Source of the DNA: Serinicoccus chungangensis
GTDB taxonomy: Bacteria > Actinomycetota > Actinomycetes > Actinomycetales > Dermatophilaceae
Direction: 5' to 3'
DNA length: 64,000 nucleotides
Assembly (NCBI RefSeq): GCF_006337125.1
Contig: NZ_CP040887.1
Location: forward strand, 1,612,001 to 1,676,000
Position numbers and translations under genes: made by a program. Below, in pieces: positions 4,625-61,080 of this stretch; within the stretch, counting starts at the first letter, position 1, and every line of letters starts with the position of its first letter. A model generated the notes under the pieces. The model saw only the letters and a program-made list of their open reading frames with translations, did not search any database and had not been told where the DNA came from.

Positions 4625-4707
4625 ACCGTCACCGGGGCGGGCCGGACCGCAGCAGGCACCCACCGCACCACCTCCCAGGACGCACGACCGACGGGAACGA
4701 CGAACCG

Positions 4708-6350: not shown

Positions 6351-6362
6351 GTTGTCGACAAC
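6351..6362. promoter_or_regulatory. putative GntR operator, BCCT2 promoter
   Basis: A perfect 12-bp palindrome, GTTGTCGACAAC, with the same TTGT-NN-ACAA core as the three other sites in the island. A -10-like CATACT at 6374-6379 follows, so the site covers the -35 region of the transporter gene that starts at 6414. A half site ACAATC lies at 6366-6371. Confidence 0.6.
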
Positions 6363-6413
6363 TAGACAATCAGCATACTGCGCTGTCCCGTGCGCGACCC
6401 CAAGGAGACGACC

Positions 6414-8123
6414 GTGGACGACCTCGCACGCCGGTTGGGCCTGAAGACCAACCCTCAAATCTTCTTCACCTCGGCCGGGTTGATGGTCCTCATCCTGGCC
6501 CTGCTGCTCATCTTCCCCGCCAGCATCGGTGACGGCTTCGCCGCAGCCCGCACGTGGGTGACGACCAACCTCGGCTGGTTCTTCATCTTCGGCGTCACCG
6601 TGTGGCTCATCTTCCTCATCTGGATCGCCAGCAGCAAGTACGGCGACCTGAAGCTCGGCAAGGGCGACGAGGTCCCGGCCTACACCCGGGTCTCCTGGTT
6701 CACCATGCTCTTCGCCGGCGGCATCGGCACCATCCTCATGTTCTGGGGCGTCGCCGAGCCCATCTCGCACTTCACCACCCCGCCCTTCCCGGACGTGGAG
6801 CCCTACAGCGCCCAGGCGGCGGAGGACGCGATGAACGTCGCGCTCTACCACCTGGGTCTGCACACGTGGGCCATCTTCACCCTCCCCGGGCTGGCCTTCG
6901 GCTTCTTCATCTACCGCTACGACCTCCCGATGCGCGTGAGCTCGGTGTTCTACCCCTTCCTCAAGGAGCGCATCCACGGCCCGATCGGCAAGACCATCGA
7001 CGTCTTCGCCGTCCTCGGCACCCTCTTCGGCCTCGCGGTCAGCCTGGGTCTGGGCACCTCGCAGATCAGCGCCGGCCTGTCCGAGCTGACCGGTGTCGGT
7101 GACAGCGTGCTCGTCCGGGTCCTCGTCATCACCGTGCTCACCGCCGTGGCGACCACGTCGGTGGCCGTCGGTCTCGACAAGGGCATCAAGCGGCTGTCCA
7201 ACCTCAACATCGGGATGGCCGTCGGCATGATGCTCTTCGTCCTCTTCACCGGGGGCGCGACCGTCTTCCTGCTCCGCTCGCTCATCGAGAGCGCCGGCAA
7301 CTACCTGGCCGCCCTGCCCTCGCTGGCCTTCTGGAACGACGCGCTGGCCAACGCCACCCAGGCCGACGGCTGGGGCTGGCAGGCCGGGTGGACCGTCTTC
7401 TACTGGGCCTGGACGGTCACCTGGGCACCCTTCATGGGAGTCTTCCTGGCCCGGATCTCCCGGGGCCGCACGGTCCGGGAGTTCGTCGGCGGCGTCCTCG
7501 TGGCCCCCACGCTGTTCACCCTCGTGTGGTTCGTCATCTTCGGCTGGTCGGCGATGGAGATCGACGGCATCGGCGGTGACGGCGGGCCGATCTCCGCGGC
7601 GGTCGCCGAGAGCGTGCCGCTCGCGATGTTCACCTTCTTCGAGAACTTCCCCCTGACGACGCTGCTGCAGGGCCTGGTCATCGTCGTCGTGGCGCTCTTC
7701 TTCGCCACGTCGGCCGACTCCGCGGCCCTGGTCATCGACATGCTGTGCAGCGGCGAGAACGAGGAGGGCCCGGTCGGACAGCGCGTGTTCTGGGCGGTCT
7801 GCCTCGGTGCGCTGGCCGCGCTGCTCATCGTCCTCGGCGGTGACGAGGCCCTCCCGGCGCTCCAGGAGGTCATCACCGTCGTCGGGCTCCCGATCTTCAT
7901 CCTCGTCTTCGCGATGATCCCGGCCCTCTTCGCCGGCCTGCGGGCCGAGAAGAAGCGGGTCGAGCACGGCGACCCGACGGTCACGCCCCAGGAGCAGATC
8001 GAGATCGTCGAGCGGGAGGACGAGCGGCAGCGCGAGGAGGCCGCCCGGCAGCGCGAGGAGGCCGCCCGGCAGCGCGAGGAGGCCGAGAACGGCGTCCCCG
8101 CCCAGAAGGAGACCTCCTCCTGA
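6414..8123 (+). CDS. divergent BCCT-family transporter with altered substrate box
   Basis: BCCT-fold secondary transporter, 569 residues. Start GTG 6414 follows AAGGAG with good spacing. It keeps the fold motifs (FYWAWTVTWAPF then ARISRGR on TM8, SADSAA on TM9/10), but the substrate region differs from BetP: the TM3 glycine stretch reads GGIGTILMFWG, the TM4 box reads YHLGLHTWAIF (Trp and Tyr positions replaced by Leu and Phe), and one TM8 cage Trp is Thr. A ligand other than a trimethylammonium compound is therefore likely. The charged C-terminal tail has heptad repeats of QREEAAR. It is probably the uptake system of the adjacent catabolic island, which shares its operator. Confidence 0.88.
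   Translation: MDDLARRLGLKTNPQIFFTSAGLMVLILALLLIFPASIGDGFAAARTWVTTNLGWFFIFGVTVWLIFLIWIASSKYGDLKLGKGDEVPAYTRVSWFTMLFAGGIGTILMFWGVAEPISHFTTPPFPDVEPYSAQAAEDAMNVALYHLGLHTWAIFTLPGLAFGFFIYRYDLPMRVSSVFYPFLKERIHGPIGKTIDVFAVLGTLFGLAVSLGLGTSQISAGLSELTGVGDSVLVRVLVITVLTAVATTSVAVGLDKGIKRLSNLNIGMAVGMMLFVLFTGGATVFLLRSLIESAGNYLAALPSLAFWNDALANATQADGWGWQAGWTVFYWAWTVTWAPFMGVFLARISRGRTVREFVGGVLVAPTLFTLVWFVIFGWSAMEIDGIGGDGGPISAAVAESVPLAMFTFFENFPLTTLLQGLVIVVVALFFATSADSAALVIDMLCSGENEEGPVGQRVFWAVCLGALAALLIVLGGDEALPALQEVITVVGLPIFILVFAMIPALFAGLRAEKKRVEHGDPTVTPQEQIEIVEREDERQREEAARQREEAARQREEAENGVPAQKETSS
8025..8084 (+). repeat. 21-bp in-frame tandem repeat in transporter tail
   Basis: Two exact copies of a 21-bp unit (8025-8045, 8046-8066) plus 18 bases of a third. 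Each encodes RQREEAA, a heptad suited to a charged coiled coil in the cytoplasmic tail of the BCCT protein. Copy number could vary by slippage. Confidence 0.9.
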
Positions 8124-8135
8124 GGCCACCGGCGT

Positions 8136-8179
8136 GACGAGGGCCCGTCACCACCCGAGGGTGGTGACGGGCCCTCGTC
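8136..8179. terminator. bidirectional terminator between convergent genes
   Basis: A 21-base arm at 8136-8156 is perfectly complementary to 8159-8179, giving one of the strongest hairpins in the window. It sits between the end of the BCCT gene and the end of the oppositely transcribed aminotransferase gene and can serve both. Confidence 0.9.
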
Positions 8180-8264
8180 CGTCCGGGGGGCCCGGTGGCG
8201 TCGCTGTCGGGCCTCGTCGCCGCCGCCCGGTGGCCTCGCCGCGGAAGACCCGGCGGTCCGGCCC

Positions 8265-9515
8265 TCAGAGCGCCGAGGCGAGCGCCTTCGTCCAGAGGTC
8301 GCCGGCCTCGTCCACCTGCTCCTCGGTGACCACCAGGGCGGGGATGAAGCGCACCACCTGGCCCCAGGCGCCGCAGGTGAGCAGCAGCAGGCCGTGCTCG
8401 GCGGCGGCCTGCTGGGCGCGCGTCGCCGTGGCGCCGTCGGGCTCGCCGTCCGCGGTGCGGAACTCCGAGCCGAGCATGAGCCCCAGCCCGCGCACGTCGG
8501 TGATCTCGGCGTGCTCCCGGGCGGCGGCGGTGAGGCGCCCGCGCAGCTGCTCGCCGCGCGCCGCCGCGTTGCCCACGAGGTCCTCGCGGCGCATGACGTC
8601 CAGGGTCGCCAGCGCCGCGGCGCAGGCCACCGCGTTGGCGCCGTAGGTGCCGCCCTGGGAGCCGGGCCAGGCCCGCCCCATGAGCTCCTGCGACGCGGCG
8701 ATCCCGGACAGCGGGAAGCCCGAGGCGATCCCCTTGGCGGTGATGAGCACGTCGGGCCGGACGCCGAAGTGGTCGTGGCCCCAGAAGCGGCCGGTGCGCC
8801 CCCAGCCGGTCTGCACCTCGTCGACGACGAGCAGGATGCCGTGCCGGTCGGCCCGCTCGCGCAGCCCGGCGAGGAACTCGGCCGAGGCGGGGACGTAGCC
8901 GCCCTCGCCCAGGACCGGCTCGACGAGGAAGGCCGCGGTGTCCTGCGGCGCGGTCACCGTCTGCAGGAGGTGGTCGAGCTCGCGCAGCGCGAAGTCGGTG
9001 GCCTGCTCCTGGCTCCAGCCGTAGTGCGTCGGGTTGGGGAAGGGGGAGACCGCGACGCCCGGCATGAGCGGGGCGAAGCCGGAGCGGAACTTGGTGCCCG
9101 AGGTCGTCAGCGAGGCGGCCGCCACGGTGCGCCCGTGGAAGCCCCCGTGGAAGGCGACGATGTTGGGCCGGCCGGTGGCCTGCCGGGCGAGGCGCAGCGC
9201 GGCCTCGACCGCCTCCGACCCGCTGTTGGCGAAGAACATCGAGTCCAGGCCCTCGGGGAGGACCTCGGACATGCGCTCGACCAGGTCGAGCAGCGGACGG
9301 TGCATGACCGTGGTGTACTGCGCGTGGATGATCTTGGCGACCTGCTCCTGCGCGGCCGCCACCACGTCGGGGTGGGCGTGACCCGTGCTGGTCACGCCGA
9401 TGCCGGCGGTGAAGTCCAGGTACCGGCGGTCCTGCTCGTCGAAGATCACGGCGCCCTCGCCGCGGTCGGCGATGACGGGAGTGGCTTGCTTGAGCATCGG
9501 GCTGAGGTGCGCCAC
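8265..9515 (-). CDS. class III aminotransferase (GabT/DoeD-like)
   Basis: PLP-dependent omega-aminotransferase of 416 residues, related to 4-aminobutyrate and diaminobutyrate transaminases. Motifs: FFANSGSEAVEAALRLAR (PLP phosphate site), AFHGGFHGRT, VVDEVQTGWGRTG (Asp of the PLP ring) and LITAKGIASGFPLSG with the Schiff-base lysine. The exact amino donor cannot be read from sequence: GABA and L-2,4-diaminobutyrate are both plausible. The link to an ectoine-hydrolase-like gene in the same predicted regulon favours diaminobutyrate to aspartate semialdehyde (DoeD role). GTG 9515 follows AGGAG. It is divergent from the aldehyde dehydrogenase, with the operator palindrome between them. Confidence 0.85.
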   Translation of the reverse strand: MAHLSPMLKQATPVIADRGEGAVIFDEQDRRYLDFTAGIGVTSTGHAHPDVVAAAQEQVAKIIHAQYTTVMHRPLLDLVERMSEVLPEGLDSMFFANSGSEAVEAALRLARQATGRPNIVAFHGGFHGRTVAAASLTTSGTKFRSGFAPLMPGVAVSPFPNPTHYGWSQEQATDFALRELDHLLQTVTAPQDTAAFLVEPVLGEGGYVPASAEFLAGLRERADRHGILLVVDEVQTGWGRTGRFWGHDHFGVRPDVLITAKGIASGFPLSGIAASQELMGRAWPGSQGGTYGANAVACAAALATLDVMRREDLVGNAAARGEQLRGRLTAAAREHAEITDVRGLGLMLGSEFRTADGEPDGATATRAQQAAAEHGLLLLTCGAWGQVVRFIPALVVTEEQVDEAGDLWTKALASAL

Positions 9516-9537
9516 GGTCGACTCTCCTGGGATTGGT

Positions 9538-9553
9538 AGATTGTTGACAATCT
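9538..9553. promoter_or_regulatory. putative GntR operator between aminotransferase and aldehyde dehydrogenase
   Basis: Perfect 7-bp arms AGATTGT and ACAATCT around TG. On the + strand the left arm overlaps a -10-like TAGATT (9537-9542), with AGGAGG and GTG 9582 downstream. One bound dimer could control both divergent genes. Confidence 0.75.
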
Positions 9554-9581
9554 GAACGTACCGCATCACCAGGAGGTCGTC

Positions 9582-11120
9582 GTGAGCGCCGAAGGACCCG
9601 TCGAGCAGACGTCGCAGGACCGGGGGAGCAGCCCGCGGGAGCAGCAGGACCGGGACCCCGCCCTGGACCGCGTCCCGACCGACCTCTTCATCGGCGGTCG
9701 GTGGGTGCCGGCCGCCTCGGGGGAGCGCTTCGACGTGCAGGACCCGGCGACCGGCCGCGTGCTCGCGAGCGTCGCCGACGCCGGACCCGAGGACGGTATG
9801 CGCGCGCTCGAGGCCGCCGCGCAGGCGCAGGCCGAGCTGGCCGCGAGCTCGCCCCGGCAGCGCGCCGACTGGCTGAACGCGGCATACCAGGCGGTGATGG
9901 ACCGCGCCGACGAGCTGGCCCTGGTCATGACCCTGGAGATGGGCAAGCCGCTGGCCGAGGCCAAGGGCGAGGTGACCTACGCCGCGGAGTTCCTGCGCCA
10001 CTTCGCGGGCGAGGCGCTGCGCATCGAGGGGGGCTACCAGAGGTCGCCGGCGGGCGACGGGCGCTTCCTGCTCCTGCGTCAGCCGGTCGGGCCCTCGCTG
10101 CTCATCACCCCGTGGAACTTCCCCATGGCGATGGGCACCCGCAAGATCGCCCCCGCCATCGCCGCGGGGTGCACCAGCGTCATCAAGCCGGCCCACCAGA
10201 CCCCGCTGTCGATGCTGGCCCTCGTCGACGTCCTGGCCGAGGTGGGGGTGCCCGCCGGTGCCGTCAACGCGGTCACCACCACCCACGCCGGTGCGGTCAT
10301 GGAGCCGATGATCCGCTCCGGGCTGGCCCGCAAGCTGTCCTTCACCGGCTCCACGAAGGTCGGCAAGGTCCTGCTCGAGCAGGCGGCCGAGCGGGTCATG
10401 CGCACCTCGATGGAGCTGGGCGGCAACGCCCCCTTCATCGTCTTCGAGGACGCCGACCTCGACGACGCCGTCGCGGGCGCGATGGCGGCCAAGATGCGCA
10501 ACATGGGCGAGGCGTGCACCGCCGCCAACCGGATCTACGTGCAGGAGTCGGTCGCGGAGGCCTTCGGGCAGCGGCTCGCCGAGGCGATGTCCCGGCGCCG
10601 GATGGGCCCCGGCACCGAGGAGGGCGTCACGGTCGGTCCGCTCATCGACGAGGCCGCCCTGGACAAGGTGCGCGAGCTGGTGCAGGACGCGGTCGAGCGC
10701 GGTGCGCAGGTGCTCACCGGGGGCGAGGCCCCCGGCGGGGACGGCTGGTTCTACCCGCCCACCGTGCTGACCGGGGTGTCCCCGGAGGCCCGGATGGGCA
10801 GCGAGGAGATCTTCGGCCCGGTCGCGCCGCTCACCCCGTTCACGACCGAGGCCGAGGTCGTGGGCCTGGCCAACGACACCCCGTTCGGGCTGGTGTCCTA
10901 CGTCTACACGCGCGACCTGGACCGGGCGCTGCGCATGGCCGAGGCGCTGGAGTCCGGCATGGTCGGTCTCAACCAGGGCGTGGTGTCCAACCCCGCGGCG
11001 CCCTTCGGCGGCATCAAGGAGTCCGGGCTGGGCCGCGAGGGCGGTGCGGTCGGCATCGAGGAGTTCCTCGAGCTGAAGTACGTCGGGATCGCCGGTCCGC
11101 GGTCCGCTCAGGAGGGCTGA
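9582..11120 (+). CDS. NAD(P)-dependent aldehyde dehydrogenase (succinate/aspartate-semialdehyde type)
   Basis: Aldehyde dehydrogenase superfamily, 512 residues. It has the cofactor and catalytic motifs ITPWNFPMAM, FTGSTKVGK, MELGGNAPFIVF (general-base Glu) and GEACTAANR with catalytic Cys312, then EEIFGPVAPL and PFGGIKESGLGREGG. Closest in style to GabD/SSADH enzymes. In the island context it would oxidise the semialdehyde made by the divergent aminotransferase (DoeC role: aspartate semialdehyde to aspartate, or succinate semialdehyde to succinate). GTG 9582 follows AGGAGG. Its 3' end overlaps the convergent regulator gene by 13 bases. Confidence 0.9.
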   Translation: MSAEGPVEQTSQDRGSSPREQQDRDPALDRVPTDLFIGGRWVPAASGERFDVQDPATGRVLASVADAGPEDGMRALEAAAQAQAELAASSPRQRADWLNAAYQAVMDRADELALVMTLEMGKPLAEAKGEVTYAAEFLRHFAGEALRIEGGYQRSPAGDGRFLLLRQPVGPSLLITPWNFPMAMGTRKIAPAIAAGCTSVIKPAHQTPLSMLALVDVLAEVGVPAGAVNAVTTTHAGAVMEPMIRSGLARKLSFTGSTKVGKVLLEQAAERVMRTSMELGGNAPFIVFEDADLDDAVAGAMAAKMRNMGEACTAANRIYVQESVAEAFGQRLAEAMSRRRMGPGTEEGVTVGPLIDEAALDKVRELVQDAVERGAQVLTGGEAPGGDGWFYPPTVLTGVSPEARMGSEEIFGPVAPLTPFTTEAEVVGLANDTPFGLVSYVYTRDLDRALRMAEALESGMVGLNQGVVSNPAAPFGGIKESGLGREGGAVGIEEFLELKYVGIAGPRSAQEG

Positions 11121-11830
11121 GCCCCCGCCACCGGCGGGCCCAGGCTGCCCCGGGGCGAGCCGGTGAGGCGGTGCATGGCGTCGCGCATGTGCCGGACGAG
11201 CAGGGCGTCGGTGCGGCGTGCCCCGCCCCGCGTGAACGACCGCGCGAGCTCCCGGTGCTCGCCGACCCGCTCCTCGTCGACCGCGTAGGTCGGCTCCAGC
11301 AGGTGGATGCACATCCGCGTCTCGGTGAGCAGCGTGGCGTGGACGCGGGACAGCTGCGGGCTCTGCGCCCGGTCGACCAGCACCTGGTGGAAGCGGATGT
11401 CGGCCGTGCTGACCTCGCGCACGTCGCCGGTGGCCGCGGCGGCGGCCATGTCCTCCACGACGGCGAGCAGGGCCCGGCCGGCGTCCTCCGGGTCGGTCTC
11501 GTGGATCCGGTCACCCGCGGCCCGCTCGACCGCGGCGCGGGCGAGGTAGAGGTCGCGCACCCGGTCGTCGGTCATCTCGACGACGAACAGGCCGCGGTTG
11601 CGGTGGGCGACGAGCAGCCCCTCCTGGGAGAGCCGCTGCAGGCCCTCGCGCAGGGGGCCCCGGCTCACGCCGAGGCGCGCGGCGTACTCCACCTCGCCGA
11701 GCTGGCTGCCGGGCGCGATCTCGCCGGTGGCGATGGCCTCGCGGATCCGCGCCGCGACGATGCTCGGGGTCGACTCCCGCGGCACCGGCCGCAGGGCCGG
11801 GGCGGCGAGCTCGGTCCAGGGGTCGGTCAT
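11108..11830 (-). CDS. GntR-family (FCD) transcriptional regulator
   Basis: 240 residues: an N-terminal winged helix-turn-helix (IVAARIREAIATGEIAPGSQ, then LGVSRGPLREGLQRL) and a C-terminal FCD ligand domain, with metal-binding candidates in ADIRFHQVLVD and the RHMRDAMHR segment. FCD regulators typically bind TNGT-N-ACNA-type palindromes as dimers and are released by small organic acids or amino acids. The four TTGT-NN-ACAA palindromes in this island are its likely operators. ATG 11830 overlaps the stop of the upstream racemase-like gene (ATGA), so the two are co-transcribed from the palindrome at 12,636. Confidence 0.92.
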   Translation of the reverse strand: MTDPWTELAAPALRPVPRESTPSIVAARIREAIATGEIAPGSQLGEVEYAARLGVSRGPLREGLQRLSQEGLLVAHRNRGLFVVEMTDDRVRDLYLARAAVERAAGDRIHETDPEDAGRALLAVVEDMAAAAATGDVREVSTADIRFHQVLVDRAQSPQLSRVHATLLTETRMCIHLLEPTYAVDEERVGEHRELARSFTRGGARRTDALLVRHMRDAMHRLTGSPRGSLGPPVAGAQPS

Positions 11831-12588
11831 CGGTGGGCTCCCTCCGTGGTCCCGGGGTGGTGGGCGGCCGCGAAGAGCCGGCCCAGCCCCGGCACCGCCG
11901 GCACCTCGCCCAGCAGCGCCAGGCCGTCGTGCAGGCTCACCTGGTTGGCCGTGAGCACGACGGTGCCGAGGTCGGCCTCCAGGTCCTCCAGCCAGGGCAG
12001 GGTGTGCAGGGCGGTGTCCGGGACGAGCACGGCCTGCGCGCCGGTGCGGTCGACCCCGCCGGCGAGGGCGAGCACCTGCTCGCGGCCCAGGGTGCCGACC
12101 TCCGCGGCCGTGAGGATGTCGTGGCTGCCCAGGGCGGTCACCTCGATGCCGGCCCGGCCGAGGAAGGTGACGAAGGCCGAGGCGACGTCGTGCGGGTAGG
12201 ACGCCGCCACCGCCACCCTCGTCAGGCCCAGCCGGTGCGCCGCCCGGACGAACGCCAGCGAGGTCGACGTGGTCGGCAGCCCGGTGCGGGCGGCCAGCCC
12301 GGCCACCTGCTCGTGCGCCCCCTCCCAGCCGAAGACGAAGCTGCCCGAGGTGCACGCCCACACGAGCGCGTCGCAGGGGGTGCTGCGGGTCAGCCGGTCG
12401 GCACCCTCGGCCAGCCGCGCCGCGCCACCCAGGTCGAGCAGGGCGTCGACCCGGTGGGCGTCCTCGCCGACGCTGGTGTGCGCGACCGGCAGGCGCACGG
12501 CATACCCCGCCTCGCGGAGCACCCCCTCCACCCACGGGTAGTCGTCCTCGGCGCTGTGGCCGGGGTAGAGGATCCCGATCGTGCTCAC
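11827..12588 (-). CDS. Asp/Glu racemase-superfamily protein (EutA/maleate isomerase-like), one catalytic Cys lost
   Basis: 253 residues of the aspartate/glutamate racemase, arylmalonate decarboxylase and maleate isomerase superfamily. The first cysteine motif ACTSGSFVFG is present near residue 85. The second, which reads SCTNLRT in the paralogue at 19.5-20.3 kb, reads PDTALHT here, so the second catalytic cysteine is absent. True two-base racemase or isomerase chemistry is therefore doubtful. It is cotranscribed with the GntR gene by ATGA overlap. GTG 12,588 is chosen; GTG 12,594 is equally possible. No substrate can be named. Confidence 0.8.
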   Translation of the reverse strand: MSTIGILYPGHSAEDDYPWVEGVLREAGYAVRLPVAHTSVGEDAHRVDALLDLGGAARLAEGADRLTRSTPCDALVWACTSGSFVFGWEGAHEQVAGLAARTGLPTTSTSLAFVRAAHRLGLTRVAVAASYPHDVASAFVTFLGRAGIEVTALGSHDILTAAEVGTLGREQVLALAGGVDRTGAQAVLVPDTALHTLPWLEDLEADLGTVVLTANQVSLHDGLALLGEVPAVPGLGRLFAAAHHPGTTEGAHR

Positions 12589-12635
12589 GCTCACCCCTGT
12601 CGACGGCGGCCGTCGTCCTCGGCCGGCTGGTGCGT

Positions 12636-12651
12636 AGATTGTAGACAATCA
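12636..12651. promoter_or_regulatory. putative GntR operator between racemase/gntR and FAD/Fe-S oxidoreductase
   Basis: GATTGT and ACAATC arms around AG (core 12,637-12,650). It overlaps a -10-like TAGATT (12,635-12,640) on the + strand and TACAAT on the - strand, so it can repress both divergent units, including the regulator's own. Confidence 0.75.
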
Positions 12652-12666
12652 TCGTCAGGAGGACAG

Positions 12667-15582: not shown

Positions 15583-15584
15583 GC

Positions 15585-15666
15585 ATACACAGGACGCGCC
15601 GTAGGCGCGCTCCGGACGGGTGCTCGCGCTACACAGGACGCATGTCTGGGATACACAGGACGCGTG
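15585..15666. repeat. three dispersed TACACAGGACGC units
   Basis: The 12-mer TACACAGGACGC occurs at 15,586-15,597, 15,630-15,641 and 15,652-15,663 just after the oxidoreductase stop. The units are near-complementary, with G-U pairing, to the CGTGTTCTGTGT units of the tandem array that follows. A small inverted repeat ACAGAC/GTCTGT lies at about 15,672-15,690. Confidence 0.8.
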
Positions 15667-15712
15667 TTCCGACAGACGAGTCGTGTCTGTGCCTCGCGCA
15701 CGTCCTGGGGGT

Positions 15713-15822
15713 GCTGACGACGTGTTCGGTGTGCGCTGGTGACGAGTTCGGTATGCGCTGGTGACGTGTTCTGTGTGCGCTGGTGACGTGTTCTGTGTGC
15801 GCTGGTGACGTGTTCTGTGGGT
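15713..15822. repeat. 22-bp tandem repeat array, five copies
   Basis: Five head-to-tail 22-bp units (15,713, 15,735, 15,757, 15,779, 15,801); the third and fourth are identical and read GCTGGTGACGTGTTCTGTGT plus GC. There are no spacers, so it is not a CRISPR array. It ends 3 bases from the stop of the convergent M20 gene and could fold against the preceding ACACAGGACGC units as a long imperfect hairpin. Confidence 0.9.
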
Positions 15823-15824
15823 GG

Positions 15825-17066
15825 CTAGCGCGCGTCCGGGGCGAGCAGGTGGAGGATCGTGCGGGCGTAGCCCCGGGCGGCGACGAGCAGCTCCTCGACC
15901 GCGACCGACTCGTCGGGCCGGTGGGCCTGCTCGTGCACCGAGCCGGGGCCCTGGACCACCACGGGGACGCCCCACTCACGCGCCACGAAGCCGCCGTCGC
16001 AGGCGGCCGTCCACCCCTGGAGCGGCACCGGGCCGCGCCCGGCCCCGTCCGTCGCCGCGTCGACGACCCGCACGAGCTCCTCGGACGGCGACGTCTCGAA
16101 GCCGGGCATGTCCATGGGCGAGCTCACCGACCAGCTCAGCCCGCGCGACTCCAGGTCGAGCGCCGCGAGTCGCTCCCGGACGGTCTCGACGACCGTCTCC
16201 ATCGGCTCCCCGGGCAGCAGCCGGCGGTCCACCTCGACGCGGCACAGGTCGGGCACGGCCGACCCCGACGTGCCGCCCCGGATGACGCCGACGTTGACGG
16301 TGGCCGGGCCCACCAGGGCGTGCGCGGCCGTCGCCAGCTCCTCGTGCCACCGGTCCAGGTCCGCGACGACCAGGGCCGCGCCGCTGATGGCGTTGCGCCC
16401 GTCGGCCGGTCGGCCAGCGTGGGCGGCGACCCCGCGCACCTCGATGTGCAGGTATGACGCACCGCGCGCGGCCACGACCGTCGCCAGGTCCGTGGGCTCG
16501 GCCACGACGCACCCCAGCAGCGGCGGGGGCGGCTGCTGCACGTAACGGCGGATGCCGATGCCGTTCTGCTCCTCGTCGCACAGCGCGTCCAGCCGGACCG
16601 GGCCGCTGAGCCGGACCCCGCTCTCGTGGACGGCGGCCATCGCGACCAGGACCGCCGCGAGCCCGCCCTTCATGTCGGCGCTGCCGCGGCCGACGATCCG
16701 CCCGTCGACGAGCGCCGCGGCATACGGGTCGACACCCCAGTCCTCCAGCGACCCGGGCGGGACGACGTCCGTGTGCCCGAGGAAGAGCAGACCGGGGCCG
16801 TCGCCGCCGTCGAGCCGCACGCCGACGTTGGGCCGGCCCGGCTCCACCTCCTCGAGCGCGGACCGCAGCCCCAGCTCCTGGGCGAGCCCGGCCAGCACGT
16901 CCGCCGTCGCGGCCTCCTCGCCCGGGGGGTTGGCGCCGGGGGCCCGGACGAGCCGCTGCGTCAGCGGCACCAGCCGGTCGGCGGTGATCCGGCCCAGGAC
17001 CTCCTGCTCGGTGCCCGTCCGCTCGCCCCCGCCGCGCCCGGTGCCGGCCTGGCCGGCGCCGGTCAT
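15825..17066 (-). CDS. M20-family metallo-deacylase (ArgE/DapE-like)
   Basis: 413 residues with the M20 dinuclear-zinc layout: LFLGHTDVVPP near residue 94, GRGSADMKGGLA, CDEEQNGIG, VAEPTDL, and AHAGRPADGRNA in the lid domain. Family members remove acyl groups from amino acids (acetylornithine, succinyl-diaminopimelate). Last gene of a four-gene unit (eutA-like, M24, aminotransferase, M20) joined by stop/start overlaps; its ATG 17,066 overlaps the upstream stop. In classical ectoine breakdown, N-acetyl-diaminobutyrate is opened by DoeB/EutE, an AstE-type enzyme; this M20 enzyme may fill that step. That role is inferred. Confidence 0.88.
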   Translation of the reverse strand: MTGAGQAGTGRGGGERTGTEQEVLGRITADRLVPLTQRLVRAPGANPPGEEAATADVLAGLAQELGLRSALEEVEPGRPNVGVRLDGGDGPGLLFLGHTDVVPPGSLEDWGVDPYAAALVDGRIVGRGSADMKGGLAAVLVAMAAVHESGVRLSGPVRLDALCDEEQNGIGIRRYVQQPPPPLLGCVVAEPTDLATVVAARGASYLHIEVRGVAAHAGRPADGRNAISGAALVVADLDRWHEELATAAHALVGPATVNVGVIRGGTSGSAVPDLCRVEVDRRLLPGEPMETVVETVRERLAALDLESRGLSWSVSSPMDMPGFETSPSEELVRVVDAATDGAGRGPVPLQGWTAACDGGFVAREWGVPVVVQGPGSVHEQAHRPDESVAVEELLVAARGYARTILHLLAPDAR

Positions 17067-18274
17067 CGGCCGGCGGCGACGTCCACCGCGCGCGCCAGCC
17101 TCGCCACCCCCTCGTGGATGCGCTCCGGCCGGGTCGAGGCGAAGCAGAGCCGCAGGTCGTGCGGGAAGCGGCGGGCGGGGGAGAAGGCGTTGCCCGGGAT
17201 GTAGGCGACGCCCTCGGCCAGGGCGGTCTCGAAGAGCGCCTCGGTGTCCACCTCCTCGCCGAAGGACACCCAGAGGAAGAAGCCGCCCTCGGGGTCGGTC
17301 CACGTCGCCCGGCCGGAGAAGTGCTCGGTGAGCGCCTGCTGCATGGCGTCCTTGCGCCGGCGGTACTCCTCCCGCTGCACGGCGAGGTGCTCCTCCAGCC
17401 GTCCCGAGCGCAGGAAGGCGGCGACGAGACGCTGGGCGGGCAGGTTGGTGCAGGTGTCCATGGACTGCTTGGCGTGGATGAGCAGCTGGCCCAGCGAGGG
17501 GTCCGCGTCCACCCAGCCCACCCGCAGCCCGGGGGCGACGATCTTGGAGAAGGTGCGCACCGAGAAGACCAAGGGGTCGCCGTCGGCGAGCTCGTGCAGG
17601 CTCGGCACCGGGTGCCCCGCGAAGCGCAGCATGCCGTAGGGGTCGTCGTCGAGGACGACGCTGCCCCAGGAGCGGGCCACCTCGAGCAGCTCGCGACGAC
17701 GGTCCAGGGACATCGTGGTGCCGGAGGGGTTCTGGAAGGTCGGGACGGTGTAGATGACCTTGGGCGCCCGGCCCGCCCGGTCGACGGCGGCGCGCAGCGC
17801 GTCGATGGACATCCCGTCCTCGTCGACCTCGATCTCGGCGAGCTCGGCCTGGTAGGCCAGGGCGGTCGCGCTGCCGTTGGTGTAGGTGGGCGACTCCACG
17901 GTGACGAGGTCACCCGGGTCGATGAACAGCTTGGCGGCGAGGTCGAGCCCCTGCATGCCGCCGGCGGTGATGGTGAGCCGGTCCTCGGTGGTGGCGTCGG
18001 TCGTGCCCTCGAGCATGGTCAGCAGCGCGGCGCGCAGGTCCGGGTCGCCCTCCGTCGCCGCGTAGTCGAAGGACGCGGGCGTGCCGAGCTCGGCCGCGGC
18101 GGCCTCGGCGAGCGCCTCGGTGGGGATCGCCTCGGCCGCGGGGCTGCCCATGGCGAAGCGGACGATGTCGTGGGTCTGCCGGGCCAGCAGCGAGGTGCTG
18201 GAGTCGATGACCGACCCGACCAGCAGGTCGGCCCGGGAGGCCAGCGGGAGGTGGGTCGTGGCGGCGGAGGTCAT
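17063..18274 (-). CDS. class I/II PLP aminotransferase (2-aminoadipate-type)
   Basis: 403 residues of the aspartate aminotransferase fold, resembling LysN/KAT-type and MocR-associated aminotransferases. Visible: ITAGGMQGLDLAAKLF near residue 105, YTVPTFQNPSGTTMS near 185, VVLDDDPYGMLRF near 215, and the PLP lysine in FSVRTFSKIVAPGLRVGW near 247. No DNA-binding domain is attached, so it is an enzyme and not a MocR regulator. Start ATG 18,274 overlaps the M24 stop, and its stop overlaps the M20 start. A second transaminase in the island implies either a different amino donor or a further 2-oxo-acid step. Confidence 0.9.
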   Translation of the reverse strand: MTSAATTHLPLASRADLLVGSVIDSSTSLLARQTHDIVRFAMGSPAAEAIPTEALAEAAAAELGTPASFDYAATEGDPDLRAALLTMLEGTTDATTEDRLTITAGGMQGLDLAAKLFIDPGDLVTVESPTYTNGSATALAYQAELAEIEVDEDGMSIDALRAAVDRAGRAPKVIYTVPTFQNPSGTTMSLDRRRELLEVARSWGSVVLDDDPYGMLRFAGHPVPSLHELADGDPLVFSVRTFSKIVAPGLRVGWVDADPSLGQLLIHAKQSMDTCTNLPAQRLVAAFLRSGRLEEHLAVQREEYRRRKDAMQQALTEHFSGRATWTDPEGGFFLWVSFGEEVDTEALFETALAEGVAYIPGNAFSPARRFPHDLRLCFASTRPERIHEGVARLARAVDVAAGR

Positions 18275-19491
18275 GGGTGGGTCACCAGTCCTTGGTCGAG
18301 GGGGGCGAGCAGTTCGGGCGGGCCGTCGGTGACCAGCACCGACTCGGAGGTCTCGTAGCCCCAGCGGTCCATCCACATCCCGAGGATGACGTGGAAGCAC
18401 ATTCCGGGCGTCAGCACCGTGTGGTCCTCGGCGCGCAGGCTGACGGTGCGCTCGCCCCAGTCGGGCGGGTAGCCGATGCCGATGGAGTAGCCGATCCGCG
18501 ACTCCTTGGACAGGCCGTAGCGGGAGATGGTGCGGGTGAAGGCCGCGTGCACGTCGGCCGTGGTGCTGCCGGGCCGCATCGCCGCGAGCGCCTGCTCCAG
18601 CCCGAGGCCGGTGGCCTCGGCGGTCTGTGCGAGCTGGGCGGGGGGAGGCCCCAGGCTGACGGTGCGCGCCAGCGGCACGTGGTAGCGCCGGTGCACGCCG
18701 GCCAGCTCGATCGTCGTGGCCTCGCCCTGCCGCAGCGGCTCCTCGACCCAGGTCAGGTGCGGGGTGCCGGCGGTCTCCCCGCTGGGCAGCATCGGCACGA
18801 TGGCGGGGTAGTCGCCGCCGAGCGCCTCGGTGCCGTGGGCCTGCGCCTGCTGGATCTGCGCGACCACGTCGCACTGGCGCGCCCCCGCCCGCAGGCTGTC
18901 GATGGCGACGGTCATGGCCCGCACCGTCACCTCACCGGCCGCCCGCATGAGCGCGATCTCGGTGTCCGACTTGACCACCCGCAGCCAGTTGACCAGCTCG
19001 TGGCTGTCGACCAGCCGTGCCTCGGGCAGGCAGGCGTCCAGGGCGAGGTAGGCGCGCGGGCTGAAGTAGTGGGCGTCCAGCTCCAGGGCCAGCACGCAGG
19101 GCCCGGTGGGCAGCGCGCCGACCTCGCGGCCGCGGCGGGCGATCCACTCCCAGGGGTGGATGTCGCGCCGGTGGACGTAGTGCTCGGGGTAGCCGTGGAT
19201 GCGCTCGGGCGGCAGGGTCGCGGTGTGGTGCCCGCCCTTGGCGTCCATGGCCCGGAGCACCAGGTGGGCCTCGCCCCGCACCGGGACCAGCAGGGCCTGC
19301 GGCATGTAGAACGACCAGGCGTTGTAGCCGGTGAGGTAGTAGAGGTTGGCCGGGTCGGTGACGACCAGCGCGTCCTGGCCGCGGCCGGCCAGCACCTCCT
19401 GGACCCGCGCCAGCCGCTCCTCGTGCTCGGCCCGCAGGAGGTGCGGGTGGGCCGTCTGCTCGGCCGTGGTGATCTCGGTCAGCTCGCTCAC
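18271..19491 (-). CDS. doeA: M24 creatinase-fold hydrolase, ectoine hydrolase-like (DoeA/EutD)
   Basis: 406 residues in the pita-bread fold of M24. Several stretches match ectoine hydrolases closely rather than prolidases: DPANLYYLTGYNAWSFY near residue 45, GGDYPAIVPMLPSG near 220, PHLTWVEEPLRQGEAT, IELAGVHRRYHVPLART, KESRIGYSIGIGYPPDWGER, and the C-terminal FHVILGMWMDRWGYETSES. Ectoine hydrolase opens the tetrahydropyrimidine ring to N-acetyl-2,4-diaminobutyrate. The GTG start at 19,491 overlaps the upstream racemase stop (GTGA). Family-level call is strong; ectoine itself as the substrate is less certain because the rest of the island is atypical. Confidence 0.8.
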   Translation of the reverse strand: MSELTEITTAEQTAHPHLLRAEHEERLARVQEVLAGRGQDALVVTDPANLYYLTGYNAWSFYMPQALLVPVRGEAHLVLRAMDAKGGHHTATLPPERIHGYPEHYVHRRDIHPWEWIARRGREVGALPTGPCVLALELDAHYFSPRAYLALDACLPEARLVDSHELVNWLRVVKSDTEIALMRAAGEVTVRAMTVAIDSLRAGARQCDVVAQIQQAQAHGTEALGGDYPAIVPMLPSGETAGTPHLTWVEEPLRQGEATTIELAGVHRRYHVPLARTVSLGPPPAQLAQTAEATGLGLEQALAAMRPGSTTADVHAAFTRTISRYGLSKESRIGYSIGIGYPPDWGERTVSLRAEDHTVLTPGMCFHVILGMWMDRWGYETSESVLVTDGPPELLAPLDQGLVTHP

Positions 19492-20269
19492 GGTGCTCCC
19501 TGCAGGGTCGGGGTGGTGCTGAGGACGTCGTGGTCCCCGAGGTCGGGGCGCCGGTCGAGCAGCGGCTGGCCGGGCCCGACGGCCTGGCGGCCCAGCACCG
19601 CGAGCGCGAGCCACAGGGTGACCTGGTTGGCGCTGAGGACGGGTATGCCGAGCGCGGCCCCGAGGTCGGCCAGGAGGTCGTAGGTCCGCAGGTTGGTGCA
19701 GGAGACGAAGACGGCCCCTGCGTCGGGGGACACGGTGCGCCGCACGAGGTCTGCCGTGACCTCCTCGGGGACGGTCCAGATCTCCCCGGACAGGCCGAGG
19801 TGCCCGGTGGAGACCACCTCGATCCCGGCCGCGGTGAGGAAGCGTCCCAGGCTGACGGTGACGTCCTCGTCGTAGGGCGTCACGACGCTGACCCGGTCGA
19901 CGCCCAGCGCGCGGAGGGCGCCGACGGCGGCGCCGCTGGTCGTGACCGCCGCGGGGGCGCCGGCCTCGACGACGGTCTCGCGCAGCGCGCGCTCGCCCGG
20001 CGCCCCGGCGACGAAGCTCCCGGACGTGCAGGCGTAGGCCACCACGCCCGGGAGGACGGCCGACAGGTCGTGCGTCGCCTGGACCACCGCACCGGGCGCC
20101 CCGACCGCCCGCGCCTGGGCCATGCTCACCGGCAGCGGCAGGTGCGGCGTCCGGGTCAGGTGCAGGGTGGCGCCCAGCGGGCACCACCGCCACAGCTCAC
20201 GGTCCAGGGCGAAGTCGTAGGGCACGATCACGCCGATCCCGTCCTCGCGGATCTCACGCACCTGCCCCA
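19488..20269 (-). CDS. eutA: EutA-like Asp/Glu racemase/maleate isomerase-family protein
   Basis: About 260 residues from GTG 20,269; a GTG three codons downstream is also possible, and longer starts would cross the operator. Two cysteine motifs are intact: YACTSGSFVAG and VSCTNLRTYD, as in maleate isomerase and EutA proteins of ectoine loci. YDFALDRELWRW precedes them. The family shuffles a proton or isomerises C4-type acids; the EutA role in ectoine use is poorly defined. First gene of the unit running to 15,825 and expressed from the palindrome-bearing promoter shared with the dehydrogenase at 20,327. Confidence 0.82.
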
Positions 20270-20285
20270 CCCTGCCTGACGACGA

Positions 20286-20301
20286 GGATTGTTGACAATC
20301 C
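20286..20301. promoter_or_regulatory. putative GntR operator between eutA-like unit and D-2-hydroxyacid dehydrogenase unit
   Basis: Perfect 7-bp arms GGATTGT and ACAATCC around TG. It contains a consensus -35 TTGACA (20,292-20,297), exactly 17 bases before -10 TACGGT (20,315-20,320). GTG 20,327 begins six bases later, a textbook leaderless promoter with the operator on its -35. Confidence 0.8.
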
Positions 20302-20326
20302 GACACGGCCTTTCTACGGTCTCGGT

Positions 20327-21325
20327 GTGACGGGATCTCGCGCACGAGCCGTGGTGCTGACGGCGCCGGGTCTGGACCCGCCGCCCCAGCTCGCCGACCT
20401 GGAGGACGACCTCGACCTGCACGTCGTGGACGCCGAGGGGCTCGCGTCGGCCCTCGGCGGGGCGAGGGTGCTCTTCCTCTGGGACTTCTTCTCGCCCGCG
20501 GTGGCGCAGGCGTGGGACTCGGCCGACGCGCTCGAGTGGATCCACGTGGCGGCCGCCGGCGTCGACAGCCTGCTCTTCCCCGCGCTGGTCCGCTCGCCGG
20601 TCACCGTCACCAACGCCCAGGGGGTCTTCGACCGCCCCATCGCGGAGTTCGTCCTGGCCAGCGTGCTCGCGCACGCCAAGCGGCTGCACGAGAGCCGCGA
20701 GCTGCAGCGCCAGCACGTGTGGCAGCACCGGGAGACGACGCTCCTGCAGGGCCAGCGGGTGCTGGTCGTCGGCACCGGCGGGATCGGTCGGGCGACCGTC
20801 CACCTGCTGCGCGCCGTGGGCTGCGAGGTGCGCGCCGTGGGTCGGCGGGCGGTCCCGGACGACCCGGAGCTCGGCGAGGTCGTGGCGAGCGACGCGCTCG
20901 CCGCGCACGTCGGCTGGGCCGACCACGTCGTCAACGCCGCGCCCCTGACCGCCGCCACGACCGGGCTGCTGGACGCCGCGGTGTTCGCGGCCATGCGGCC
21001 GGGGGCGCACGTCGTCAACATCGGCCGCGGGGCGAGCGTCGTGCAGGAGGACCTCCTCGCGGCCCTGCGCGAGGGGCATCTCGGCGGGGCCTCGCTCGAC
21101 GTGCTGGAGGAGGAGCCCCCGCCACCGGGGTCCCCGGTGTGGGACACCCCCGGCCTCGTGCTCTCGGCCCACCTGTCCGGCGACGTCGTCGGCTGGCGGG
21201 ACACCCTGGCCGAGCAGTTCGTCGCCAACGCCCGCCGCTTCCTCGCCGGTGCACCCCTGAGCGGGGTCGTCGACAAGGAGCTGGGCTACGTACCCCGCTC
21301 GCCCGCAGGTCAGGTCCAGGTATGA
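20327..21325 (+). CDS. NAD(P)-dependent D-2-hydroxyacid dehydrogenase
   Basis: 332 residues. Rossmann motif VVGTGGIGRATVH near residue 145, the family NIGRGASVV segment near 228, and catalytic Arg/Glu/His positions represented by NIGRG, EEEPPP and the SAHLSG histidine. Members reduce 2-oxo acids to D-2-hydroxyacids reversibly (glyoxylate/hydroxypyruvate reductase branch). Leaderless GTG 20,327 sits six bases after TACGGT. Its stop overlaps the amidase start (ATGA). Together with the FAD/Fe-S D-hydroxyacid dehydrogenase of the same regulon it could form an oxo-acid/hydroxy-acid couple. Confidence 0.9.
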   Translation: MTGSRARAVVLTAPGLDPPPQLADLEDDLDLHVVDAEGLASALGGARVLFLWDFFSPAVAQAWDSADALEWIHVAAAGVDSLLFPALVRSPVTVTNAQGVFDRPIAEFVLASVLAHAKRLHESRELQRQHVWQHRETTLLQGQRVLVVGTGGIGRATVHLLRAVGCEVRAVGRRAVPDDPELGEVVASDALAAHVGWADHVVNAAPLTAATTGLLDAAVFAAMRPGAHVVNIGRGASVVQEDLLAALREGHLGGASLDVLEEEPPPPGSPVWDTPGLVLSAHLSGDVVGWRDTLAEQFVANARRFLAGAPLSGVVDKELGYVPRSPAGQVQV

Positions 21326-22794
21326 CGTCCGCCCCCCGCGGCGGGGCAGGTCCCCGTCACCCGTCCCGCCCGACCGCGCTGGAGCTCTCCGCCGGGTTCG
21401 CCGCGGGCAGCACCACGCCGGAGCAGGCCACGGAGCGGGCCCTGGCGGCGATCGAGGCCCTGGACCCGCTCGTGCGGGCCATGGTGCTGGTCGACGCCGA
21501 GGGGGCCAGGCGCGCGGCCCACGAGTCGACGCGCCGCTGGGAGCAGGGACGGCCGCTCGGCCCGGCGGACGGCATACCGACGACGATCAAGGACATCCTG
21601 CTCACCCGGGGGTGGCCGACGCTGCGGGGGAGCCGGCTCATCGACCCCGGGACGGGGGCGGACTGGCCCGAGGACGCTCCCGCGGTGGCGCGTCTGCGCG
21701 CGGCCGGCTGCGTGTTCCTCGGCAAGAACGCCACCCCCGAGTTCGCCTGGAAGGGCACCACCGACTCGCTGCGGCACGGCGCGACGGGCAACCCCTGGGA
21801 CCCGGCGCTCACCGCCGGTGGGTCCAGCGGGGGAGCGGCAGCGGCCGTGGGCCTGGGGATGGGCGCCTGGTCGGTCGGCACCGACGGCGGGGGGTCCGTG
21901 CGGATCCCGGCCGCCTTCACCGGGACCGTCGCGATCAAGCCCACCTACGGCCGGGTGCCGCTGCACCCGGCCAGCCCCTACGGCACCCTGGCCCACGCCG
22001 GCCCGATGACCACCTCGGTCGCGGACGCCGCCCTCATGCTCGACCTCATCGGGGTGCCCGACCCCCGCGACTGGTCCGCGCTGCCGGAGCCGCCGCGCTC
22101 CTTCCTCGACGGGATCGAGGACGGGGTCGAGGGGCTGCGGGTCGCGGTGTCCCCGCGGCTGGGGCTGGGGGGCGACGTCGTCAACCACCCGGCGGTGGAC
22201 CGGGCCCTGCTCGAGGCCGCCGAGGTGCTGGCCGCCGCGGGGGCCCGGGTCGAGGAGGTCGACCCGGAGCTGGCCGGCACGGGCTGCCTGGAGGCCTTCC
22301 ACACGCTGTGGTTCACCGGTGCCGACAAGGTCGTCCAGGCCTACGGTCAGGACGCCCTGGAGCAGGTCGACCCCGGGCTCCGGCGGGCGATCCGTCGCCA
22401 CGGGCAGGGGGTGAGCGCCGCGGACTACCTCGACGCCACCGCCGTGCGGATGGAGCTGGGTCGACGGATGGGCCGCTTCCACGAGGAGCACGACGTGCTC
22501 CTCACGCCGACCGTCCCCGGCCCCGCCTTCGACCTCACCCGGCAGGGGCCCGACGCCCCCGACCAGCTGTGGACGTCGTGGACCCCCTACACCTACCCCT
22601 TCAACATGACCCAGCAGCCGGCGCTGTCGGTGCCCGCCGGGCTCACCGACGACGGCCGACCCGTCGGCGTGCAGCTGGTGACCGCGCGGCACGCCGACGC
22701 CCTCGCCCTCCGGGTGGGGCGCACGCTGGAGCAGCGCACCCGCTGGCGCGACGTCCTACCCCCGCTGCTGGACCGGACCGAGGAGCACCCATGA
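21322..22794 (+). CDS. amidase-signature hydrolase
   Basis: 490 residues with the amidase signature: Lys in IPTTIKDILL near residue 90, GGSSGGAAAA near 170 with the cis-Ser, and the nucleophile Ser in DGGGSVRIPAAF near 195; PFNMTQQPALSVPAGL closes the domain. It cleaves an unspecified amide and could act on an N-acyl intermediate or side substrate of the island. It lies between the hydroxyacid dehydrogenase and the DUF3830 gene with 4-base overlaps on both sides, so the three products are translationally coupled. Confidence 0.9.
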   Translation: MTSAPRGGAGPRHPSRPTALELSAGFAAGSTTPEQATERALAAIEALDPLVRAMVLVDAEGARRAAHESTRRWEQGRPLGPADGIPTTIKDILLTRGWPTLRGSRLIDPGTGADWPEDAPAVARLRAAGCVFLGKNATPEFAWKGTTDSLRHGATGNPWDPALTAGGSSGGAAAAVGLGMGAWSVGTDGGGSVRIPAAFTGTVAIKPTYGRVPLHPASPYGTLAHAGPMTTSVADAALMLDLIGVPDPRDWSALPEPPRSFLDGIEDGVEGLRVAVSPRLGLGGDVVNHPAVDRALLEAAEVLAAAGARVEEVDPELAGTGCLEAFHTLWFTGADKVVQAYGQDALEQVDPGLRRAIRRHGQGVSAADYLDATAVRMELGRRMGRFHEEHDVLLTPTVPGPAFDLTRQGPDAPDQLWTSWTPYTYPFNMTQQPALSVPAGLTDDGRPVGVQLVTARHADALALRVGRTLEQRTRWRDVLPPLLDRTEEHP

Positions 22795-23297
22795 GCCGCT
22801 TCATCACCATCACCCTCGACACCCGCGGCGTCACCTGCCGGGCGCGGCTGCTGGAGGACGAGGCGCCCCGGACCTGCGCCGCGGTCTGGGACGCGCTGCC
22901 GCTCACCGCGCCGGTGTTCCACGGCAAGTACGCCCGCAACGAGATCTACACCCTGCTGCCGCGCTTCGGGGACGACCCCGGCAAGGAGAACACCACGGTC
23001 ACCCCCATCCCCGGTGACGTGTGCTGGTTCACCTTCGACGGCGCCGACCTCGGCAACCCCGCCTACGGCTACGAGACCGAGCGCGAGCACCGCGCGGCGG
23101 GGGAGGGCGGCATCGTCGACCTCGCCGTGTTCTACGGGCGTAACAACCTGCTCATCAACGGCGACCAGGGCTGGGTGCCCGGCAACGTGTTCGGCGAGAT
23201 CGTCGACGGCCTGCCGGAGATGGCGCGCGCCTGCCAGGACGTCTGGATGGGCGGCGCCCGCGGCGAGACCCTGACGCTGGCGCGCGCCGAGGGCTGA
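22791..23297 (+). CDS. DUF3830 family protein (cyclophilin-like fold)
   Basis: 168 residues of the DUF3830/cyclophilin-like family: VFHGKYARNEIYTLLPRFG near residue 40, VTPIPGDVCWFTFDG near 65 and the C-terminal EMARACQDVWMGGARGE. Function is not established. Relatives tend to sit beside amidases, racemase-superfamily proteins and M24 hydrolases, as here, which hints at a shared pathway. ATG 22,791 overlaps the amidase stop. Confidence 0.8.
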   Translation: MSRFITITLDTRGVTCRARLLEDEAPRTCAAVWDALPLTAPVFHGKYARNEIYTLLPRFGDDPGKENTTVTPIPGDVCWFTFDGADLGNPAYGYETEREHRAAGEGGIVDLAVFYGRNNLLINGDQGWVPGNVFGEIVDGLPEMARACQDVWMGGARGETLTLARAEG

Positions 23298-60640: not shown

Positions 60641-61080
60641 GGCTCCAGCGTACGGACCCCTGCGGACATAGCCGGACCCCGGCACCTTTGGGGCCGGTCC
60701 GTACGCGGCTGGCGGCCGGCACGGTCCCGTTGTCTACTCGGTGCTCGGGGCCCTGGCTCCCCCGCCGGGCGCGTCGACGCCCGAGGGACAGACACGAAGG
60801 TAGGTCGCGCCGAGACGAGTGTCAACAACGCTCTGACCTGCGGCGATGGGAGAAATCGCAGGTCAGTCGGTCGCCCTGGTCGAGGTCCTTGGTGAGATAT
60901 TTACCTCACCTCGGCGTGTCGCTACGGACACGCCGCCCCGACATCTGCGAAGGGTGGCCGTCGGGAGGGCGGTCGGCTGAGACCGGCTGTGCGGCCACAT
61001 CGTCCGGCCAATAGGTCATGTGACAAGAAATCATCCTGTCGGTACTCGCATACGCCGGACATCATCCGTAGCATGGCGGG
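60641..61080. other. 440-bp intergenic region with three inverted repeats
   Basis: Longest non-coding gap. It separates the divergent lnt and KamA-family genes. Three inverted repeats stand in a row: CTGACCTGCG/CGCAGGTCAG (60,833-60,866), GGTGAGATATTTACCTCACC (60,891-60,910) and GGCGTGTC/GACACGCC (60,913-60,934). A leaderless -10 TAGCAT is at 61,069-61,074. The upstream part (60,641-60,830) shows nothing recognisable. Confidence 0.75.

Follow-up and report, generated by a model that had tools for sequence, protein, structure and literature searches.

A GntR-associated operator outlines a probable regulon for ectoine and/or 5-hydroxyectoine catabolism in Serinicoccus chungangensis

According to the available part of a 2026 paper (PMC13188858), ectoine catabolism has been demonstrated experimentally in a few Proteobacteria only, and the clusters with EutD-like proteins in Actinomycetes, Bacilli, Clostridia and Halobacteria are provisional by the authors' own account; eutE is absent from the Bacillaceae clusters described there, and for Gram-positives the paper reports an abgB amidohydrolase in the absence of eutE. 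In the published routes, as far as the accessible texts go, the ring is opened by EutD/DoeA. Our literature search yielded no paper joining Serinicoccus and ectoine, and none on a 2-hydroxyacid dehydrogenase together with ectoine, aminotransferase and degradation in Actinobacteria. Here we describe an island in the genome of Serinicoccus chungangensis (one contig, 3.46 Mb), within the stretch of 64,000 nucleotides that was analysed (NZ_CP040887.1, positions 1,612,001 to 1,676,000; the window). The island runs from the transporter gene BCCT2 (6390) to a DUF3830 gene (23297), consists of intact open reading frames (ORFs, Table 1) and probably constitutes one GntR-controlled regulon for the import and degradation of ectoine and/or 5-hydroxyectoine.

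The window contains three exact copies of the palindrome ATTGTNNACAAT, at 9540, 12638 and 20288, one at each of the island's three divergent promoters. Two further copies carry two mismatches, one at 6351 before BCCT2 and one at 60818, away from the island. When up to two mismatches were allowed, five matches were found against 0.73 expected, and none of 100 shuffles reached five. The original prediction, which described an island centred on an ectoine hydrolase, had named neither the GntR gene nor the operator, and its start coordinate is precisely that of the degenerate copy at 6351; the protein classes that it did name are all present as intact ORFs at the place it gave.

The same site was found in related loci (L and G numbers denote loci and genomes, respectively). 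We compiled 80 loci from four locus searches (31, 19 of 20, 16 of 18 and 14; L081, L133 and L134 were left out because they duplicate islands already included); these loci share ancestry, so that counts on them are not independent events, and some may be of the same species (seen for L008/G257). The exact operator is present in 44 of the 45 loci that carry the GntR gene (the exception being L212) and in four of the 35 loci without a GntR match (L012, L017, L019 and L130). There are 105 exact sites in the 0.89 Mb of these loci, against 0.04 expected from base composition; six control palindromes of the same composition have no copy in the 80 loci. None of the exact copies listed is more than 260 bp away from the nearest gene of the set; they precede EutA2/HADH, AT3/ALDH, M24, EutA1/FAD-FeS and transporter genes. 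Among the latter are EhuB (L018, L075 of genome G380, L131 of G183, and also G381 and G005), ProP (L010, L074, L077 and L209, with copies carrying one mismatch in L072 and L016) and BCCT (L210 and L211, about 30 bp upstream). From this co-occurrence we infer that the GntR protein reads the palindrome, and the island appears to form a single GntR regulon, because its relatives have these genes, as well as those of EhuB, ProP or BCCT transporters, behind the same operator.

The genes can be divided into two modules, M24-M20-AT1 and EutA1-EutA2-amidase-DUF3830-hydroxyacid dehydrogenase. When the second was called on at least three of EutA1, EutA2, amidase and DUF3830 over match thresholds, 17 of the 80 loci had both modules, 25 had the second without M24, 34 had M24 only and four had neither. 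The split depends on the stretch taken, as L130 (G005) was scored M24-only, yet EutA1, EutA2, amidase, GntR and ehu genes are located some 80-95 kb away (L164). AT1 and HADH are present in all 17 loci with both modules, M20 in 15 and the FAD/Fe-S gene in 12. The 25 M24-less loci all possess the four module genes, mostly with HADH (24), GntR (22), AT3 (16) and ALDH (14), and contain no M24, M20, AT1 or FAD/Fe-S gene, so the island is not simply hydrolase-centred. Among the 34 M24-only loci we found M20 in 24, a ProP-like transporter in 21, AT1 in 14 and HADH in 11. In L009, HADH and AT1 each matched as two overlapping pieces, and the genes may be frameshifted or misassembled.

It could be argued that M24, M20, AT3 and ALDH make up a plain route from ectoine to aspartate, for which they would be enough on paper, and that the EutA, amidase, DUF3830 and D-2-hydroxyacid genes belong to an unrelated pathway that shares the neighbourhood. 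M24-M20-ProP sets without the other module do occur (e.g. L020-L026, L083 and L084). Nevertheless, a single operator serves both modules, three proteins (P0022, P0082 and P0095) are natural EutA2-M24 fusions in which the EutA-like domain is N-terminal and has the Cys..Cys pair, and L018 (Homoserinimonas), L075 and L131 contain all twelve genes, differently ordered and with ehu genes interspersed or adjacent, which makes this explanation decidedly unlikely. The gene arrangement is not a matter of chance, as other genera possess the complete set in a different order. Within the island, overlaps of 4 bp couple EutA2-M24-AT1-M20, HADH-amidase-DUF3830 and EutA1-GntR. Genome G380 has two M24 genes, one in a full regulon with ehu genes (L075) and one in an M24-M20-ProP set without operator (L076).

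The M24 protein is 93-96% identical to its relatives in four Serinicoccus loci and 84% in a fifth. It aligns over its full length with the solved DoeA structure 6TWJ (348 bits, the next family reaching 73). The Asp pair that binds metal in prolidases is replaced by E262 and P273, while H245 is present, as in DoeA of S. meliloti and Rhizobium; at the position of the motif IELAG...HxP, prolidase-like outgroups show VDIGG...SD. M24 and S. meliloti DoeA both contain the blocks GDYPAIVP, PHLTW, RYH and YPPDWGERT. Judged by these residues M24 should work like DoeA, yet it is not classed as a DoeA equivalog. In a tree of 57 rows it was placed in an actinobacterial clade of 37 rows, sister to a group of 14 rows that holds the eut-linked DoeA, haloarchaeal and Shinella proteins (support 96/91 and 92/96). 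The original prediction had treated a position outside the DoeA clade as refuting its ectoine reading; since the active-site replacements are common to both groups, the sister position is inconclusive for the substrate. DoeA-specific columns were uninformative as a discriminator, M24 keeping 28 of 94 against 30-31 in the Shinella and 34-38 in the haloarchaeal relatives. In one genus (L086, L087, L088 and L091) an M24 gene (50-54%) lies beside a class III aminotransferase gene, without M20, GntR or operator, and in three of these loci a probable permease, read from the translation, adjoins M24. Further M24 proteins (27-39% identical) are encoded on rhizobial plasmids (L139, L140 and L143) beside M20, EutA-like racemase, mandelate-racemase-like, D-amino-acid transaminase or glyoxylate-reductase genes, and may be part of a broader range of DoeA-like pathways.

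The transporters associated with the regulon in other genera point to ectoines. EhuB exceeds the ectoine cut-off set by NCBI (190.9 bits) in the three rearranged islands (262 bits in L018, 264 in L131 and 276 in L075), and in L018, the one of the three in which they were tested, EhuC (222 bits, cut-off 197) and EhuA (358 bits, cut-off 345) pass as well. The same holds for EhuB in loci with the second module only (L203, 256; L206, 268; L207, 262; L215, 206 bits), and for EhuA (408 bits, cut-off 345) and EhuD (290 bits, cut-off 205) in the contig-end locus L214. In a survey of 396 genomes of the order, EhuB was matched at 1e-40 in 80 and over the cut-off in 28; the four best (G380, 276; G005, 268; G183, 264; G381, 255 bits) all come from genomes with M24 and DUF3830. 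In these four genomes the ehu genes are neighbours of the regulon's EutA genes (ehuADCB adjoins EutA2 in G381 and G005) and an exact site lies about 150-200 bp upstream of each ehuB, for instance in L163 and L164, two stretches that adjoin EutA2. The best solved matches of the L075 EhuB are 2q88/2q89 (226 bits, next 74), which we take to be the ectoine-binding EhuB. Sites with one mismatch were found before ehuB in L168 (2641), a stretch that extends into an island at its HADH/AT3 end, and in L160 (8749), between ehuB and a GntR gene 42% like that of the window. EhuB matches near the cut-off were dismissed as proof, as 11 of the 15 EhuB neighbourhoods taken from the order have neither module nor site (up to one mismatch). 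The host itself is predicted to be an ectoine consumer, because it has no ectoine synthase gene, while of 99 genomes from the order 17 were positive in the same search.

Several observations weigh against a regulon for ectoines, next to the shared ancestry of the loci. M24 scores 402 bits to the DoeA model TIGR02993 (cut-off 613) and 176 bits to NF038259 (cut-off 575), falls outside the eut-linked DoeA clade and keeps fewer than a third of the DoeA-specific columns, and EutA1 and EutA2 reach 68 and 103.1 bits to TIGR02990 (EutA, cut-off 318). GntR and site are both absent from many M24-M20-ProP loci, and the site before BCCT2 in S. chungangensis itself carries two mismatches. The cargo of BCCT2 cannot be read from its sequence, and no EhuB was found in the genome at E 1e-40. 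Of the 11 order EhuB neighbourhoods without a site, seven are from genomes with the amidase/DUF3830 module only (L157-L162, L167 and L169 cover eight such genomes, L160 being the one with a site, of one mismatch). L203, L206 and L207 lack both GntR and site and have an IclR-type gene, 12 order-level loci with the second module only (L117-L127 and L129) show no transporter over thresholds in the stretch taken, and L009 and L014 carry M24-AT1-HADH-ALDH-AT3 without a local deacylase.

ProP and BCCT transporters are broad. The regulon could serve a different zwitterionic or cyclic-amidine solute (such as a cyclic amidine derived from glutamine, or an acetylated diamino acid), the EhuB- and DoeA-like proteins having shifted in specificity. 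The sister position of M24, its sub-threshold score, those of the EutA-like proteins and the recruitment of transporters from three unrelated families would all fit this. The seven EhuB proteins over the ectoine cut-off, the EhuA and EhuC of L018 and the EhuA and EhuD of L214, the match to 2q88/2q89 and the catalytic blocks that M24 has in common with S. meliloti DoeA argue against another solute, which we consider unlikely. Ectoine and/or 5-hydroxyectoine appear to be the best substrate candidates, in line with the ectoine or cyclic-amidine reading of the original prediction, which gained support from the alignment with 6TWJ, the loss of the metal site and the operators before cut-off-passing ehuB genes in L018, G380, G183, G005 and G381.

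We infer each step of the pathway from the site, the modules and the protein families observed. The solute would be taken up by BCCT2; known ectoine carriers occur among BCCT proteins according to the accessible text of PMC5924519. BCCT2 adjoins AT3 in five of five Serinicoccus relatives (by matching coordinates); its homologue in Serinicoccus kebangsaanensis (G257:C11:262028-263701, the genome of L008) has one in-frame TGA. M24 would then hydrolyse the ring in a metal-free, DoeA-like manner to N-acetyl-diaminobutyrate, from which M20 would strip the acetyl group in place of an AstE-type DoeB. The product of DoeA is mainly or only the alpha isomer, as stated in the available parts of PMC7192451 and PMC5924519, which would suit an ArgE-like M20 deacetylase. 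AT3 and ALDH would convert the gamma-amino end to the acid, and an early intermediate would release GntR. The pathway might end in aspartate, as in the known route and as originally predicted. That end product is not established; AT1 and the two D-2-hydroxyacid dehydrogenases also permit another exit, in which AT1 would yield 4-amino-2-oxobutanoate, HADH would reduce it, AT3/ALDH would lead to D-malate and the FAD/Fe-S enzyme to oxaloacetate. We propose this D-malate branch only tentatively: it would account for the joint presence of AT1, HADH and the FAD/Fe-S enzyme and fits the haloarchaeal gene sets, but the FAD/Fe-S gene is missing from five of the 17 loci with both modules and from most M24-only loci.

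As predicted, no AstE-type DoeB/EutE, EutB or EutC was found among the ORFs of the island. Elsewhere in the genome, an AstE-family protein (G000:C1:3296970; L003, 9635-10666, minus strand) was rejected as DoeB with 95 bits to EutE against 402.7. A second intact doe/eut set, which would have spoken against the prediction, was likewise discarded, as the other match of the DoeA model in the genome scored 19.9 bits (EutB and EutC were not searched genome-wide). The proposed use of M20 in place of AstE is not new in kind, since the NCBIfam DoeB2 model NF038260 matches M20-type proteins and the available text of PMC13188858 reports abgB.

The EutA1/EutA2/amidase/DUF3830 module would act on the same solute class, either as a 5-hydroxyectoine branch or as a DoeA-independent branch for ring opening and deacylation. 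In EutA2 the Cys..Cys pair is kept in 46 of 46 rows, and in EutA1 the first position is Cys in 39 of 43 rows and the second is Asp in 42, the remaining row having a gap. The fold of DUF3830, a single-domain protein, resembles that of the Pictet-Spenglerases McbB/KslB and of cucumopine synthase, with profile E values of 0.47-1.5, which are not significant, and 21-22% identity; likeness in fold alone shows no function. No paper on DUF3830 was found in the literature search, and on plasmids one weak match only. A role of the amidase module in a pantothenate or maleamate pathway was dropped in view of the osmolyte transporters.

It is conceivable, if doubtful, that EutA1, EutA2, amidase, DUF3830 and HADH together form a DoeA-independent route for ectoine/5-hydroxyectoine, in which DUF3830 would open the cyclic amidine and the amidase would deacylate the product, and which would act alone in many actinobacteria and beside M24/M20, under one GntR operator, in Serinicoccus. 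The module adjoins ehuBCDA in four M24-less loci (L203, L206, L207 and L215), three of which also lack AT3/ALDH, so that the local set is incomplete. In the five genomes that hold these four loci and L214 (G562, G520, G552, G616 and G596), M24 scores do not exceed 86.1 bits to DoeA or 136 to DoeA_2, compared with 402 and 175 bits for M24 of the window, and the best DoeA score in 16 order genomes with DUF3830 but without a close M24 is 95 bits; the exception is G490, with a distant M24 (173 and 219 bits to DoeA and DoeA_2) beside the module. Perhaps equally questionable is the alternative that the module handles only 5-hydroxyectoine after ring opening, the M24-less genomes using an unrelated ring opener encoded elsewhere. 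The requirement of R. pomeroyi for EutABC during growth on 5-hydroxyectoine (PMC8739950, accessible part), the two Cys that EutA2 retains like rhizobial EutA and the EutB- or haloarchaeal-IlvA-like gene in L015, L017 and L032 (from tblastn, not family-scanned) are consistent with it. The position of the module next to ehuBCDA is less so, and no known ring hydrolase was present among the neighbours scanned (four in L206 and one in L215).

For EutA1 and EutA2 the starts at 12594 and 20270 were preferred because of the operators at 12638-12649 and 20288-20299, respectively. Beside the island (1788-6258) we found another osmolyte locus, with BCCT1 and a choline-sulfatase (TIGR03417, 566 bits, cut-off 433), a divergent gene (3653-4663) that is probably formylglycine-generating-enzyme-like, given weak NCBIfam matches, and a nearby tRNA-Pro at 1525. 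Homogentisate/fumarylacetoacetase-like genes (u24 and u25, named from translation only) lie just outside the island in L012, L013, L011 and L073.

Table 1. Genes and operator copies of the island, with positions in the window
Feature	Position	Strand	Assignment	Remarks
Operator GTTGTCGACAAC	6351..6362	+	Degenerate GntR operator before BCCT2	2 mismatches
BCCT2	6390..8123	+	Proposed solute importer	BCCT family 489.6 bits, cut-off 407.55
AT3	8265..9515	-	Class III aminotransferase, GabT/acetylornithine-type, DoeD-like	
Operator ATTGTTGACAAT	9540..9551	+	GntR operator between AT3 and ALDH	Exact copy
ALDH	9582..11120	+	SSADH-like (DoeC-like) aldehyde dehydrogenase	
GntR	11108..11830	-	GntR-family regulator, FadR-like by NCBIfam neighbours; proposed operator reader	
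EutA1	11827..12594	-	Amdase/EutA-like isomerase, Cys..Asp pair	ORF extends to 12648
Operator ATTGTAGACAAT	12638..12649	+	GntR operator between EutA1-GntR and FAD/Fe-S gene	Exact copy
FAD/Fe-S	12667..15582	+	FAD/Fe-S D-2-hydroxyacid dehydrogenase, YdiJ/GlcD-like	
M20	15825..17066	-	ArgE/DapE-type deacylase; proposed N-acetyl-diaminobutyrate deacetylase	TIGR01910 240 bits, above cut-off 217.6
AT1	17063..18274	-	Class I alpha-aminotransferase, LysN/KAT II type	
M24	18271..19491	-	DoeA-like hydrolase (ring opening proposed)	Metal site lost (E262, P273)
EutA2	19488..20270	-	EutA-like isomerase, Cys..Cys pair	ORF extends to 20345
Operator ATTGTTGACAAT	20288..20299	+	GntR operator between EutA2-M24-AT1-M20 and HADH-amidase-DUF3830	Exact copy
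HADH	20327..21325	+	NAD D-2-hydroxyacid dehydrogenase	Start 20327 or 20351
Amidase	21322..22794	+	Amidase-signature amidase	NF004815 618 bits, above cut-off 506
DUF3830	22791..23297	+	PF12903, cyclophilin-like fold; candidate C-N ring enzyme	

With a regulon delimited by its operator, ectoine catabolism in Gram-positives can be put to a direct test, and its member genes can be told apart from mere neighbours. If the M24-free module does handle ectoines, DUF3830 would gain a reaction, cyclic amidine opening would have a second evolutionary solution, and many actinobacteria that are not now counted would become ectoine consumers. Neither the operator, nor the separable amidase/DUF3830 module, nor its M24-free occurrence beside ehu was found in the literature searched, as far as the texts were accessible.

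With the known eut/doe clusters (ehuABCD-eutABCDE of S. meliloti, doeABCD of H. elongata and ueh-eut of R. pomeroyi) the island has in common an M24 ring hydrolase, an EutA-type protein, DoeD- and DoeC-like last steps and an osmolyte transporter. Unlike these clusters, it has no AstE-type DoeB, EutB or EutC, its GntR protein is of another subfamily than their MocR-type EnuR, its M24 belongs to the sister clade, and AT1, HADH, the FAD/Fe-S enzyme, the amidase and DUF3830 are additional. In the Gram-positive and haloarchaeal EutD clusters of PMC13188858, an EutD homologue is likewise accompanied by an amidohydrolase, an aminotransferase and BCCT, without eutE; the part of that text available to us does not mention an operator, D-2-hydroxyacid enzymes, an amidase/DUF3830 module or M24-free versions. 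The haloarchaeal M24 loci of Haloprofundus (L039) and Natrialba (L040) also combine M24 with a FAD/Fe-S dehydrogenase, a D-2-hydroxyacid dehydrogenase, a class III aminotransferase and an amidohydrolase or M20. These two differ from the island in that the stretches taken contain no match to EutA, DUF3830 or AT1, and in that they carry a glutamate dehydrogenase gene and a threonine-dehydratase-like gene, the product of which could form the keto acid of the D-malate branch from hydroxy-diaminobutyrate.

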